In this document: in pieces, positions 2,339 through 9,420 of the stretch
Position numbering within the stretch: the first letter of the stretch is position 1
How the letters are laid out: every line of letters begins with the position of its first letter
DNA from: a bacterium
GTDB taxonomy: Bacteria > DYJV01 > JALVYZ01
Assembly (NCBI GenBank): GCA_027037705.1
Contig: JALVYZ010000245.1
Location: 1 to 11,144 of the forward strand
Direction: 5' to 3'
DNA length: 11,144 nt
Made by a program: the position numbers and the translations under genes
The notes under the pieces: generated by a model
The model's input: the letters and a program-made list of their open reading frames with translations, nothing else
What the model was told of the DNA's origin: nothing
Database searches by the model: none

Positions 2339-3207
2339 ACATAGGAAATTTAAAGTTAAAAAATCCAATAATGACTGCAAGTGGAACATTTGGATATGGT
2401 ATAGAGTATAAAGATTTTATTGATTTAAATATATTAGGAGCAATTGTAACAAAGGGCATATCTTTAGAACCGAAAATTGGGAATCCTCCTCCAAGAATTT
2501 TTGAAGGTAATGGTTATTTGATGAACCATATTGGACTTGAAAATGTTGGAATTGAAGTTTTTCTTAGAGAGAAATTACCTAAAATTGAAAATTTTGATAC
2601 AAAAATAATAGTAAATTTTTTTGGGAATAGTGAAGACGAATATTGCAAAGTTGCTGATATATTATCTAAAAATAAAAGGATTGATGCTCTTGAAGTAAAT
2701 ATTTCCTGTCCAAATGTAAAAAAGGGGGGATTAGAGTTTGGTTTATTCCCTGACGAAGTATTTAATTTAATTAAAAAAATAAAAAAATTTTGTTCAAAAC
2801 CTCTATTAGTAAAGATTTCTCCACAAGTTTCCGATATAATAGGTGTAGCTAATGCAATTGAAGAGGCTGGGGCTGATGCAATTACAGCAATTAATACTAT
2901 TAAAGGTTTACGAATTAATATTGAAAATGAAGAGTATTTTTATGGTGGAATTTCAGGAGAATTTTTAAAACCAGTTGCATTGAGGATAGTGGATGAAATT
3001 ACAAAACATGTTAACATTCCTGTTATAGGTTGTGGAGGAATTAAAGATTTTAAAGATGTTAAAGAGTTTTTACTTGCAGGTGCAAAAGCTGTACAAATTG
3101 GAACATTTAATTTTATTGAACCAGACATTTTACAAAGAATAATCGGAGAATTAGCAGATAATGGATCTGATAAAGAAAATAATATCGGAAATAGAAGATC
3201 TTCCTGA
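2329..3207 (+). CDS. pyrD: Dihydroorotate dehydrogenase (NAD+) catalytic subunit PyrD, class 1B
   Basis: This FMN enzyme oxidises dihydroorotate to orotate, the fourth step of pyrimidine synthesis, in the cytosol with PyrK as electron acceptor. Family motifs in order: NPIMTASGTFGYG (12-24), VTKGIS (40-45), NHIGLEN (66-72), and NISCPN (124-129). Cys127 in the last motif is the catalytic base that marks class 1 (class 2 has Ser). Then come KISP (162-165), NTIKG (189-193), GGISG (206-210) and the FMN phosphate site GCGGI through AVQIGT (234-259). Length 292 is close to the family norm, but the last 15 or so residues are polar, lack family similarity that I recognise, and overlap the following gene by 47 nt. 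The start overlaps pyrK, consistent with making the two subunits together. Confidence 0.96.
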   Translation: MEVNIGNLKLKNPIMTASGTFGYGIEYKDFIDLNILGAIVTKGISLEPKIGNPPPRIFEGNGYLMNHIGLENVGIEVFLREKLPKIENFDTKIIVNFFGNSEDEYCKVADILSKNKRIDALEVNISCPNVKKGGLEFGLFPDEVFNLIKKIKKFCSKPLLVKISPQVSDIIGVANAIEEAGADAITAINTIKGLRINIENEEYFYGGISGEFLKPVALRIVDEITKHVNIPVIGCGGIKDFKDVKEFLLAGAKAVQIGTFNFIEPDILQRIIGELADNGSDKENNIGNRRSS

Positions 3208-5029
3208 ACTTCCAAATGTAGCTTTCAAAATTTTACAGAAAATTGATGACAAGGAGATTAATAATGTTGAGTTATCAAAATATATAGAAATAAGTCCAGC
3301 CTTATCAATTAAAATCCTAAGAATAATAAATTCTTCTTATTATGGCCTCCCACAAAAAGTAAATTCTCTACCACAAGCAATAGGTTTACTTGGAAGAAAA
3401 ACAGTAAGAAATTTAGCTTTAACGATTTTTATATTAAAGAAAATAGTTGATAAATATAGCAAAGAGTATATAGTCTGGGAGAATTTAGTTTATAGTCTTA
3501 TTACAACAAAGTTTTTATCAAAAGTTTCTAAATTAGAAGATAGAAAAGAAGATCTTATTATTACAAATATTTTGATTAATATCCCTTTAATTTTAATATC
3601 TTATCTTGATTTAGGGTCTATAGAAATTATTAAAAATTTTTATACAACAAAAAAGAATAAAAAGATTATAGATGCTTATTTAAAAGTTTTATCAGAAAAA
3701 TGGAATATAGGAGAAAATCTAATTAAAATTTTTCAAGATTTTTATTTATATTGCATTGGAGAAAAAGATGTTGGTTTAGATATTAAATTACTATGTTTTG
3801 CTAATAAAATAGCAAATTTCCTTGCATTAAATGGAGAAGACAGTGAAATTCTGCTTAAAGAAATTGCAAATAATTTCCCAAATTTTTCATTTAGTGAGAA
3901 TTTTTTTCTTTTAATTCAAAAAGAAGCAAATAATATTTTGGAAATTTTTGAGATCCCGGGAGAAAAAGATTTTTATAAAGAAGTATTCATATTTTTTTCT
4001 AAGGCAAATAAAAAAATTTCAGATTTATTAATAGAGAAAGAAAAGTTAATTGATGAAATATCAAATGTTAATAATTTGCTAAGTACAGCATTGAATAATT
4101 CTCCTTTAGGTGTAATTATTTTTGAAAACGAGGTTGCTTCATTAATCAATGTAAACGCATTAGAAATTTTGGAACTTGATTCAAAAAATTTAAATTTTTC
4201 TTTAGATGAGTTTATTGAAAAATATATTGGTAAAGAATTTTTAAATAAAAATTTAGAAAATGTTAAATTAAAATTAGAATTAAAAAATGGCCATCCTGTT
4301 GATTTAACATATTTAGGTTATTCTCATTTAGGAAATATAAAAATTGTTTTTTTAAAATCATTAAAAATTGAAAAACAACTCAAAGAAAAGTATTCTGATT
4401 TAAAAGAAACATATATTCACATTTTAAATTCAGCAGGAGATGGTATTGTTATAACTGATTTAAAATTAAGAATTTTATATGCTAATACCAAATTTTTAAA
4501 TATTTTAAAAGAATATTATGGATTTACAAACAATGTTAAAAATAAAAATTTATTAAAAATTTTGAAGTTAAAAGAAGAGGATATATTAAAACTAAGATCA
4601 GAATTTGTAAAATTAATAACAGATAATAATTCTGAATTAAGAATCGAAGTTGAAAGTAAATTAAAAAAAATTTTTGAATTAACTTGTACAAAATTTATTT
4701 ATTCTGGTTCTATTAATGGAATACAATTTATTATAAGAGATATTTCAGAAATAAAAACTTTAAAAGAAGAATCCATAAAGAATCAAGTTGCAATGGAGCT
4801 TGCTGGCACCACAGCTCATGAATTGAATCAACCTTTAACCACTCTTACTTTATCTTTAGATGTATTAAAGAAAAAAATAAAAGATGAAGATTTGAAAAAA
4901 TATCTTGAAAAAATAGAAAGTTCTGTTAATAAAATATCAACAATAGTTAAAAAATTATCTAAAATTACGAAATATGAAACAAAAACTTACTTTGGAAATG
5001 GTAAAATTATTTCATTAGACAATGATTAA
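3161..5029 (+). CDS. HDOD-PAS-PAS-DHp signalling protein without kinase ATPase domain
   Basis: A cytoplasmic multidomain regulator; no membrane segment is evident. Residues about 5-200 form an HDOD domain, with LPELP, ISPALSIKILRIINSSYYGLP and the AIGLLGRKTVRNLAL segment; HDOD domains lack the HD metal site and are thought to be regulatory. Residues about 305-405 and 410-530 look like two PAS sensor domains (the second has ILNSAGDGIVITDLKLRILYAN). Residues about 535-610 are a histidine-kinase dimerisation helix pair with HELNQPL and phospho-acceptor candidate His553. The protein then ends after YETKTYFGNGKIISLD. The N, G1, F and G2 boxes of the HATPase domain are absent, and plsC starts immediately, leaving no room for a lost domain. 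It may be a phosphorelay or dimerisation element rather than a kinase. The ATG has GGAG at 3145-3148 and overlaps pyrD by 47 nt. Partner and target are unknown. Confidence 0.85.
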   Translation: MDLIKKIISEIEDLPELPNVAFKILQKIDDKEINNVELSKYIEISPALSIKILRIINSSYYGLPQKVNSLPQAIGLLGRKTVRNLALTIFILKKIVDKYSKEYIVWENLVYSLITTKFLSKVSKLEDRKEDLIITNILINIPLILISYLDLGSIEIIKNFYTTKKNKKIIDAYLKVLSEKWNIGENLIKIFQDFYLYCIGEKDVGLDIKLLCFANKIANFLALNGEDSEILLKEIANNFPNFSFSENFFLLIQKEANNILEIFEIPGEKDFYKEVFIFFSKANKKISDLLIEKEKLIDEISNVNNLLSTALNNSPLGVIIFENEVASLINVNALEILELDSKNLNFSLDEFIEKYIGKEFLNKNLENVKLKLELKNGHPVDLTYLGYSHLGNIKIVFLKSLKIEKQLKEKYSDLKETYIHILNSAGDGIVITDLKLRILYANTKFLNILKEYYGFTNNVKNKNLLKILKLKEEDILKLRSEFVKLITDNNSELRIEVESKLKKIFELTCTKFIYSGSINGIQFIIRDISEIKTLKEESIKNQVAMELAGTTAHELNQPLTTLTLSLDVLKKKIKDEDLKKYLEKIESSVNKISTIVKKLSKITKYETKTYFGNGKIISLDND

Positions 5030-6342: not shown

Positions 6343-7629
6343 ATGGGGAATAAATCAATAGAACTTTTTGAAATAGCAAATAGATATTTAGTTGGTGGAG
6401 TTAACAGTCCAGTTAGAGCATTTAAATCAGTAGGATTGAAACCTTTATTTATATCAAAAGCCAAAGGAAGTAAAATATATGATGTTGATGGAAATGAATA
6501 TATTGATTATGTTGGTTCATGGGGACCAATGATTTTAGGGCATGCAAATCCTTCAATAATAAATGCCTTAAAAGAACAATTGGAATTTGGAACAAGTTAT
6601 GGAGCTCCTACAGAAAAGGAGATAGAATTAGCAAAATTGATAATAAAAGCATATCCATCAATAGAAAAGGTAAGACTTGTAAATTCTGGAACAGAAGCTA
6701 CAATGAGCGCAATTAGACTTGCAAGAGGTTATACTGAGAGAAAAAAGATTATCAAATTTGAAGGATGTTATCATGGACATGGAGATTCAATGCTTGTTAA
6801 AGCAGGTTCAGGTGCAACAACTCTTGGAATCCCTGATTCCCCAGGTGTTCCAGAAGAATTAGCTCAACTTACTTTAACAGCAAAATTTAATAATATAGAA
6901 TCTGTTAAAAGATTAATTTATGAAAATAAAAATGAAATTGCAGCTATTATTTTAGAGCCGATTCCTGGAAATATGGGAGTTGTTGTTCCAGAAATTGAAT
7001 TTTTAAAAGAATTAAGAGAGATTTGTTCAAATGAAAAAATTATTTTAATATTTGATGAAGTTATGTGTGGTTTTAGAGTTGCTTTTGGAGGGGCACAAGA
7101 ATTATATGGAATTTATGCAGATATTACAACTCTTGGTAAAATTATAGGAGGTGGATTACCTGTGGGAGCCTATGGTGGTAAAAAAGAGATAATGGAAAAA
7201 TTGGCTCCTGAAGGACCTGTTTATCAAGCAGGAACTTTATCTGGAAATCCACTTGCTGTTACCGCTGGAATTGAAACTTTAAAACTTCTTCAGGATAAAA
7301 AAGTTTATGACAAACTTGAGGAAGCATCAAAATATTTAAATGAAAATATGGAAAATATAGCTAAAAGTTTAAATGTGAAATCCAGCTTTAATAGAGTTGG
7401 TTCTATGTTTTCAATGTTTTTTACAGATAAAAAAGTAATAGATTATGAAACCGCTAAAACTTCTGACACTGATAAGTTTGCAAAATATTTTGCGAAAATG
7501 CTTAAAAAAGGAATTTATTTAGCTCCAAGTCAATTTGAAGCAGGATTTTTATCAACTGCTCATACAAAAGAAGATCTTGATAAAACATTAAATGCTTTTG
7601 AAGAAACTTTAAAAGAGTTATTTGAATAA
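6343..7629 (+). CDS. hemL: Glutamate-1-semialdehyde 2,1-aminomutase HemL
   Basis: HemL is a PLP enzyme that converts glutamate-1-semialdehyde into 5-aminolevulinate in the C5 pathway, the first tetrapyrrole building block. The N-terminus [10 protein letters not shown] (residues 18-27) is a HemL hallmark. Other motifs: [16 protein letters not shown] (114-129), CYHGHGD (142-148), FDEVMCGFR (237-245), and [16 protein letters not shown] (264-279), in which Lys266 is the PLP Schiff-base lysine, close to Lys265 of E. coli. Length 428 is full. It follows the siroheme decarboxylase gene with one intervening base, so one transcript supplies the first-precursor enzyme and a late-branch enzyme. The glutamyl-tRNA reductase partner (hemA) is not in the window. 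A 12-bp inverted repeat follows five bases after the stop. Confidence 0.97.
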
Positions 7630-7634
7630 TGGGC

Positions 7635-7666
7635 TATAGTCTATGGGCAAGAGGCCATAGACTATA
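7635..7666. repeat. Perfect 12-bp inverted repeat after hemL
   Basis: TATAGTCTATGG (7635-7646) and CCATAGACTATA (7655-7666) are perfect reverse complements around an 8-base loop. The RNA could fold into a stable hairpin at the end of hemL. No run of T follows (AACAATGAAA), so it is not a canonical intrinsic terminator; it may be a weak terminator or protect the 3' end. Its arms are made of the seven-base words CTATAGT and CTATGGG, so it may equally be part of the adjoining repeat mosaic. Confidence 0.7.
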
Positions 7667-7670
7667 ACAA

Positions 7671-7738
7671 TGAAAAATGAATAATGAAAAACTAACACTA
7701 ATATAAGATTGAAGGAGGAAGGAAGAAGGTAGAAGATG
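7671..7738. repeat. Two heptamer-word tracts (TGAAAAA and GAAGGAN)
   Basis: Positions 7671-7691 are three consecutive seven-base units: TGAAAAA, TGAATAA, TGAAAAA. After a short unstructured stretch, 7711-7738 is four in-phase units: GAAGGAG, GAAGGAA, GAAGGTA, GAAGATG. Units are tandem but diverged by one to three bases. No coding signal is seen here; a minus-strand open frame crossing it is composed of the repeats. Confidence 0.7.
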
Positions 7739-7780
7739 CTGAATTATGAAAATGCGAAAAAGCGTAAATGTGTAGATGAG
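7733..7780 (-). repeat. Degenerate octamer tract, inverted orientation
   Basis: Read on the minus strand, the segment divides into six consecutive eight-base units: CTCATCTA, CACATTTA, CGCTTTTT, CGCATTTT, CATAATTC, AGCATCTT. The consensus is close to YRCATHTM, the same as the plus-strand tracts at 7794-7841 and 7940-8011. A 13-base stretch (7762-7774) is an exact inverted match to 7978-7990, so the region could form a large cruciform or hairpin with the downstream tracts. Confidence 0.75.
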
Positions 7781-7793
7781 AAAAGAATAATTA

Positions 7794-7841
7794 CGCATAA
7801 ACTCATTATCGCATCCACGCATATACGCATTTACGGTTATA
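7794..7841 (+). repeat. Degenerate octamer tract, forward orientation
   Basis: Six in-phase eight-base units: CGCATAAA, CTCATTAT, CGCATCCA, CGCATATA, CGCATTTA and a diverged CGGTTATA. They share the CGCAT core with the octamers inside the M48 gene. The segment is non-coding. Confidence 0.75.
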
Positions 7842-7850
7842 GGATTATTA

Positions 7851-7930
7851 TTCACGAACAACGAATTACTACGAATTACAATTAATAACAACAAATAACA
7901 ACAAATAACAATGAGTTAGTATGAATAACA
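7851..7930 (+). repeat. Degenerate decamer tract containing the M48 gene start codon
   Basis: Eight consecutive ten-base units in strict phase, for example ACGAATTACT (7861), ACGAATTACA (7871), ATTAATAACA (7881), two exact ACAAATAACA units (7891, 7901), ATGAGTTAGT (7911) and ATGAATAACA (7921). The annotated ATG of the following gene is the first codon of the last unit. No recognisable Shine-Dalgarno site exists within the tract. Confidence 0.8.
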
Positions 7931-9420
7931 AATTTTTTACACATCTCCACATCTCCGCATCTCAGCATCTATGCATTTACACATTTACGCATATCCGCAT
8001 CTACACACTTATTGTCTTTTTCCTTTTTATATTCTCTTGTGCTACAAACCCTGTTACAGGAAAAAAAGAGTTAATGCTTATTTCTGAGGGGCAGGAAATT
8101 GCAATTGGAAAAAAGTCTGATGCAGAAATTAGAGATGAATATTCAGAGTATAAATTTAAAGATTTAAATAAGTATATTAATGATGTAGGGTATAAATTGA
8201 CAAAACATGTTCATAGAAAGAATTTAAAATATAAGTTTACAATATTAGATACTCCTGTTGTTAATGCATTTGCAATCCCTGGAGGATATGTTTATGTTAC
8301 CAGAGGGATTTTAGCTTATTTAAACAACGAAGCTCAGCTTGCCTCTGTTTTAGGTCATGAGCTTGGTCATGTAAATGCAAGACATTCTGCTAATATGATT
8401 TCTAAGCAAATATTATTTAATGTTGGTTTGGGGATTGGTTTTGCAATTTCGAAAGATTTTAGGAAATATGCAGGACTTGTTGGACTTGGTGGAAATTTAT
8501 TGTTCCTTAAATTCAGTAGAAATGATGAATATCAAGCAGATGAACTTGGTGTAGAGTATGCTACATTAGCAGGATATAATACCTATGAAATGGCAAAGTT
8601 TTTTGAAACACTAAATAGATTATCACATGAACAAAAATATTCTTTACCAGAGTTCTTATCAACTCATCCATCTCCTCCCCATAGGATAAAAAGGGTTATA
8701 AAATTAACAAAATTATGGCAGAGTAAAGTAAATTATAAGAGATTTATTATAGGGAAGAAAGAATATTTAATGCATATAAATGGGATTTTATTTGGAAAGG
8801 ATAAAAGGAATGGATATGTAGACGGACATCAATACTATCATCCAAATATGAGATTTACTTTCAAATTTCCAAAAGGTTGGAAACTGATAGATACAAGAAA
8901 ATATATTTTAATTACAAATAAAAAAAATAAAAATGTTCAAATTTTAATAACTTTAAGCAGAGAATCTCTTGATAGAACCATTTCTAATTTTTTGAAAAAG
9001 ACAAAAGGTATTGTTCTCTCATATAAAGAAATTAGAATAAATGGATTTAATGCTGTAAAAATTATAGAAAAGGTTAAATTAAATGGTGGTTATGCAATAA
9101 TTCAAACATTTTTTATTAATTTTAAAGGTTATATATTTGGATTTTATGGAATTTCACCAATTTTAAGTTATAACTTATATCGTAAAAAATTAACCATTCC
9201 AGCTTTAACCTTCAAAGAATTAAGAGATAAGAAAAGGATAAATGTTAAAAATACATACATAAAAATAATAAATATTAAAAAAGAGATTATATTAAAAGAA
9301 TTGATGTTGAAATACAATATCCCTCAGAAATATCATAAAAAAATTGCACTTATAAATAATATATCTTTAAATTCCCACCTTAAAAAAGGTGATCTTTTAA
9401 AAATAATTATTGAAAAATAG
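7921..9420 (+). CDS. M48-family zinc metalloprotease, predicted lipoprotein
   Basis: This is an M48 metalloprotease of the BepA/LoiP-like envelope type, probably anchored by lipid on the periplasmic side and acting in protein quality control. The lipobox is FIFSC, with Cys40 as lipidation site after hydrophobic 29-39. The catalytic block is GHELGH (145-150: His146, Glu147, His150) and the third zinc ligand region is NDEYQADELG (201-210, probably Glu203). ATNPVTGKKELMLISEGQEIAIG (41-63) is typical of these proteases. After about 310 comes a beta-rich domain with FKFPKGW, and the last 45 residues look like a degenerate LysM-like tail (ALINNISLNSHLKKGDLLKIII). Odd: residues 7-30 are three 8-residue repeats encoded by octamer DNA, giving an unusually long N-region before the hydrophobic core. 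No in-frame alternative start exists before Cys40, and no Shine-Dalgarno site is seen. Confidence 0.88.
   Translation: MNNKFFTHLHISASQHLCIYTFTHIRIYTLIVFFLFIFSCATNPVTGKKELMLISEGQEIAIGKKSDAEIRDEYSEYKFKDLNKYINDVGYKLTKHVHRKNLKYKFTILDTPVVNAFAIPGGYVYVTRGILAYLNNEAQLASVLGHELGHVNARHSANMISKQILFNVGLGIGFAISKDFRKYAGLVGLGGNLLFLKFSRNDEYQADELGVEYATLAGYNTYEMAKFFETLNRLSHEQKYSLPEFLSTHPSPPHRIKRVIKLTKLWQSKVNYKRFIIGKKEYLMHINGILFGKDKRNGYVDGHQYYHPNMRFTFKFPKGWKLIDTRKYILITNKKNKNVQILITLSRESLDRTISNFLKKTKGIVLSYKEIRINGFNAVKIIEKVKLNGGYAIIQTFFINFKGYIFGFYGISPILSYNLYRKKLTIPALTFKELRDKKRINVKNTYIKIINIKKEIILKELMLKYNIPQKYHKKIALINNISLNSHLKKGDLLKIIIEK
7940..8011 (+). repeat. Nine-unit octamer tract encoding the lipoprotein signal N-region
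   Basis: Nine eight-base units run in unbroken phase: CACATCTC twice, CGCATCTC, AGCATCTA, TGCATTTA, CACATTTA, CGCATATC, CGCATCTA, CACACTTA. The consensus is YRCATHTM. Because three units equal eight codons, the translation repeats every eight residues: THLHISAS, QHLCIYTF, THIRIYTL (residues 7-30 of the M48 protein). Confidence 0.85.

Follow-up and report, generated by a model that had tools for sequence, protein, structure and literature searches.

On the plus strand of the window, the whole 11,144-nt stretch analysed here, a gene for an M48-family lipoprotein metalloprotease spans positions 7921 to 9420, encoding 499 residues with no internal stop if translation starts at the ATG at 7921. 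The translation matches Pfam Peptidase_M48 (E = 7.3e-37) and carries the HExxH motif as HELGH; the nearest NCBIfam models are BepA (109.5 bits against a cut-off of 570) and LoiP (54.8 bits against 365), neither of which reaches its cut-off. At 8008 to 8040 (plus strand) the gene retains a hydrophobic core and lipobox, LIVFFLFIFSC, with the Cys codon at 8038 to 8040. The segment IYTLIVFFLFIFS-C40 has the hydrophobic core and lipobox Cys of a lipoprotein signal, and the Cys is kept in orthologues. The product predicted from the ATG at 7921 has K4 and R26, with I27 to S39 as its core, and its Cys, at residue 40, lies outside the range of about residues 15 to 35 set by the PROSITE lipoprotein rule. 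Elsewhere in the window, at 3161 to 5029, an HDOD-PAS-HisKA protein ends soon after HisKA and has no ATPase domain by Pfam.

Repeat DNA at the 5′ end of the M48 gene

Nine in-phase octamers occupy positions 7940 to 8011 (plus strand), in agreement with the first-pass annotation. In order they read CACATCTC, CACATCTC, CGCATCTC, AGCATCTA, TGCATTTA, CACATTTA, CGCATATC, CGCATCTA and CACACTTA; all lie within one mismatch of the consensus YRCATHTM, seven of the nine matching exactly and two with a single mismatch. The array as a whole (7936 to 8011) scores 78.7 in a periodic log-odds scan, where Markov-resampled sequence of the same genome gives maxima of about 15 to 20, and TRF, as an independent method, recovered it with periods of 8, 16 and 24. 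The octamers do encode residues 7 to 30 as three 8-residue repeats, as had been proposed: translation from the ATG at 7921 gives MNNKFF, then THLHISAS, QHLCIYTF and THIRIYTL, then IVFFLFIFSC ending at Cys40. The array abuts the hydrophobic core and lipobox directly, with neither a Shine-Dalgarno sequence (SD) nor an ATG at the junction.

The locus has a 5′ coding repeat with a unit that is not a multiple of three (8-nt units over codons 7 to 30), as a phase-variable locus would, but it lacks the uniform units able to slip. Matches at period 8 amount to 79% by TRF and the longest internal exact repeat is 9 nt; we rejected phase variation by slippage as the main idea, since the units are too degenerate. 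Recent copying of the array from another site was also rejected, because its CTCC-type units have no close match elsewhere in the genome.

The same octamer family recurs just upstream, again as first reported, in a non-coding forward array (7791 to 7835, plus strand) faced by an inverted array (7748 to 7784, minus strand). What the first-pass annotation missed is a separate decamer array (AACAACAAAT / TACTACGAAT) at 7857 to 7931 on the plus strand, which scores 82.7 against null maxima of about 20. The ATG at 7921 lies within it, and its last units encode MNNK. Decamers and octamers are joined by a linker, AACAAATTTTTT, at 7927 to 7938 (plus strand), and similar, often T-rich, linkers occur at other such composites. 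The entire MNNKFF segment, start ATG included, is encoded by the composite at 7857 to 8011.

No SD precedes the ATG at 7921. The RNA around it is A/C-rich and weakly structured (-3.0 kcal/mol), which is unremarkable against shuffles (z -0.06); the octamer array alone folds at z -2.42, with weak energy. Promoter and terminator signals at 7600 to 8080 were no more frequent than in shuffled sequence. By a simple scan, 107 of 200 long genes in this genome have an SD-like start. With about half of the long genes showing no clear SD, and with decamers that supply ATGs in a weakly structured leader, initiation at 7921 without an SD is plausible.

Octamer arrays as leader DNA in the genome

This 2.05-Mb genome has 166 near-matches to the octamer. 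G001, the one further genome of the same order (and phylum) among those compared, has none and was used as the control; the octamer pattern read backward could not serve, as the reversed pattern matches the same arrays. At a stricter setting across 290 genomes, the octamer was found only in the genome under study (41 matches) and in a distant 5-Mb genome, where a single short array is present (L105). We counted 71 arrays in 227 kb of sampled sequence, taken mostly around pattern matches. Eight contigs (about 59 kb) picked irrespective of arrays contain no octamer or decamer arrays, so the arrays are unevenly spread.

In the sampled sequence, forward arrays mostly end 10 to 30 nt before an SD-bearing start codon, and octamer arrays are therefore mostly gene-leader DNA. 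Many arrays form inverted pairs, in which a reverse array richer in TTC faces the forward array that leads to the gene, and several pairs have a common centre like GATACAGTATATTCTAATTGACGTATGA. Such pairs occur at 7748 to 7835 in the window and at L091, L092, L094, L097 and L100, several of them centred like AGTATATTCTAATTGA; this centre has 17 matches in the genome at up to two mismatches, against 5 for a backward control. The pairs may be a promoter or protein-binding element. Further degenerate families of 6 to 10 nt (GGAGTCG, GAAGGTT, CTATAGC, CACTAA, AAATTYA and CAACTAAC), often in similar order between genes, are found at 7630 to 7760 in the window and in other intergenic regions (L005, L006 and L010).

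The order of decamers, short linker and octamers on one strand is shared by 11 sampled sites. Nine of these composites lead to an SD-like sequence and an ATG at +12 to +46 nt, one leads to a tRNA, and the M48 copy leads to neither; it alone runs straight into CTT ATT GTC TTT TTC, the signal-peptide core. At L089 (4965 to 5200) a tRNA-like gene follows the composite, which is therefore not restricted to protein genes.

Direct reading of the sequence shows that the octamer consensus contains no stop codon and that the unit gives one cyclic 8-residue peptide, of the T-H-L/I-R-I-Y-A-F type, in all three frames. A-type arrays totalling 1794 nt contain 53 stops over all three frames, a density that predicts about 2 in a stretch of 76 nt, and finding none has a P of about 0.1; we set aside the absence of stops as a sign of coding selection, since at this P it is weak. 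Of 105 frames read through other arrays as a control, 25 are likewise open and have an ATG upstream. Because the octamer is frame-neutral, its consensus is stop-free and these control frames share the same state, the open frame through the M48 array is weak evidence of coding, a second point that the first-pass annotation had missed.

A genome-wide search with the array peptide turned up seven further arrays inside long open frames; in every case the gene has a start codon of its own, placed after the array and before the gene body. At an aroA-like gene (C285), the array translates in frame as ...YAFTHIRIY..., yet the gene begins at an ATG 12 nt past the array. An alternative for the M48 gene is that its array is an untranslated leader, as elsewhere, with translation starting at a non-AUG codon (ATT at 8011) or at the ATG at 8074 and the long frame arising by accident. 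Such a leader is consistent with the 25 control frames and with a weak AGGA upstream of the ATG at 8074. However, a start at 8011 would leave nine residues before the Cys, none of them basic, and a start at 8074 would lose the lipobox and the conserved NPVTGK segment and lies in a more structured region (-13.3 kcal/mol). We regard this explanation as unlikely.

A proposed origin for the M48 start

The G001 orthologue is 41% identical over residues 25 to 496, aligns to the end of the open reading frame and has no internal stops. It begins MPDIKFFLIFLSILFLFESC, with 19 residues before the Cys. Other orthologues have 19 (L017, G056), 24 (L012, G046) or 26 (L014, G007). The first-pass annotation had called the N-region longer than usual and suggested an alignment of orthologues; the octamer segment is absent from them, and 39 residues precede the Cys here against 19 to 26 in four clear relatives. 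The alignment places the G001 Met opposite about residue 22, inside the octamer array, and the ancestral start of the M48 gene therefore probably lay where repeat DNA now stands.

The original suggestion was that repeat DNA had spread or expanded into the gene and was tolerated or co-opted as signal-peptide sequence. Part of this stands, as a mostly non-coding family does run in frame toward the lipobox in a gene whose orthologues lack the array. Insertion into, or expansion inside, an intact signal peptide (MNNKFF joined to LIVFFLFIFSC) is the part we find improbable. Deletion of the array would bring KFF and LI together and yield KFFLIVFFLFIFSC, near KFFLIFLSILFLFESC of the G001 orthologue with its KFFLI, and 72 nt of inserted array would keep the frame. 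Matches among F, L and I are nonetheless cheap in signal peptides, and ATGAATAACAAATTTTTT is part of the decamer array and linker, both of which recur non-coding before octamers elsewhere. Where an element of the Rickettsia palindromic type would have intact gene on both sides, the left flank here is the repeat composite itself, although the KFF/LI junction resembles the orthologue. Since the composite, start ATG included, recurs as non-coding DNA, standing before an SD and ATG at nine other sampled loci, and since the G001 Met aligns inside the array, the array probably did not arise by insertion into a complete signal peptide. We rate insertion below an overrun of the start codon because the codons on the KFF side recur as composite DNA elsewhere.

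We hypothesize that the repeat leader replaced the SD, start codon and n-region of the M48 gene, and that the reading frame now opens from an upstream ATG; on the comparisons above, we consider this the probable history. Repeat composites stand directly upstream of SD-ATG sites in this genome, and the M48 gene would have lost its own SD, start codon and n-region, so that the composite came to lie against the hydrophobic core; the order of these events is our reconstruction. Because the octamer consensus is free of stops and specifies the same cyclic peptide in all frames, the frame would stay open into the last decamers, and an array joined to a signal-peptide core would be open in any frame unless TTAA-type variants were present. 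Translation could then begin at the ATG at 7921, in the last decamers, despite the lack of a strong SD, and the protein would carry about 29 to 30 repeat-encoded residues as the front of its export signal, with Arg26 and Ile27 to Leu30 directly before or within the hydrophobic core, and the extended signal peptide is presumed to function.

More tentatively, intergenic repeat composites may recurrently overrun translation starts in this lineage. Frame-neutral, stop-free repeats could make loss of the SD and ATG survivable by providing a leader that lacks an SD but offers spare ATGs, together with an N-terminal peptide that is mildly basic and hydrophobic and so of a kind accepted in signal peptides and membrane proteins. 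We consider this broader proposal possible but doubtful; if true, repeat leaders would form a lasting reservoir from which new start sites and targeting sequences arise.

Other starts and known repeat systems

A second gene, encoding a TRAP-transporter DctQ subunit (L102, 2619 to 3170; Pfam 1.6e-26), has residues 1 to 29 largely encoded by repeats of different kinds, AAATTYA heptamers and CACTAA hexamers. Repeats of these types are non-coding before an SD-ATG at L077 and directly precede the coding starts of L095 and L096. The G001 DctQ orthologue (66% identity) begins MSYLNWF opposite NTTTKLKWF here, its Met falling at about residue 29, and no start codon is left at the ancestral place. Judged from this alignment, the dctQ start seems to have been overrun like that of the M48 gene. 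Each of the two proteins has a membrane-targeting segment at its N-terminus, a position that is likely to tolerate added residues on the cytoplasmic side. A LivM-like gene at L085 (minus strand, about 700 to 1010) has a likely GTG start in GTGAGAC/GTGATAC heptamers with no SD, and is possibly a third, weaker case.

The state of dctQ also bears on whether the M48 locus reflects misassembly, or an allele that was recently disrupted and has ceased to be expressed as a lipoprotein, either of which we hold to be very improbable. In favour of such a reading, the genome is a repeat-rich draft of 496 contigs and the locus is single copy. Against it, the arrays are degenerate and share at most 21 nt of exact sequence with those sampled, which makes assembly collapse unlikely; the reading frame is unbroken and can be aligned with the orthologue as far as its end; and a second gene is in the same state.

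One genome thus offers two testable cases in which non-coding repeat DNA seemingly replaced an ancestral start codon and came to supply an envelope protein with its N-terminus. If confirmed, they would point to a simple route for moving the 5′ ends of genes and renewing signal sequences, and would caution that in genomes like this one gene prediction will yield N-termini encoded by repeats. A limited check of the literature found no report of exactly such a takeover of a start region.

Several known systems share single features with these loci. The STRR heptamer repeats of cyanobacteria are likewise degenerate intergenic short tandem repeats, and are set apart, by description, by their different units. 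In the AutB/AutA autotransporters of Neisseria and Haemophilus, AAGC repeats lie in signal-sequence DNA and vary in number, driving phase variation (PMC5118866). As there, the M48 gene has short tandem repeats, with a unit that is not a multiple of three, just past the start codon in export-signal DNA; unlike AAGC, its units are degenerate members of a dispersed intergenic family, are not known to vary in copy number, and are accompanied by a start codon that itself lies in repeat DNA. The TAACTGA direct repeats of marine Beggiatoaceae are heptamers found just upstream of start codons, usually at the SD position, with a few copies in the ends of open reading frames (PMC4679880). The octamers resemble them as a dispersed family whose numerous arrays lie directly before starts, but mostly precede an SD and occur with several families in recurrent order. 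Rickettsia palindromic elements, of about 150 bp, are inserted into genes and read in frame in ordinary proteins (PMC10969869). The M48 repeat DNA is likewise predicted to be in frame within an ordinary protein, whereas in the M48 gene the start region seems to have been taken over by a tandem array that belongs to the native 5′ flank. Compared with what is known, the new element seems to be that dispersed leader repeats took over the start region itself, in two genes and with two repeat types.
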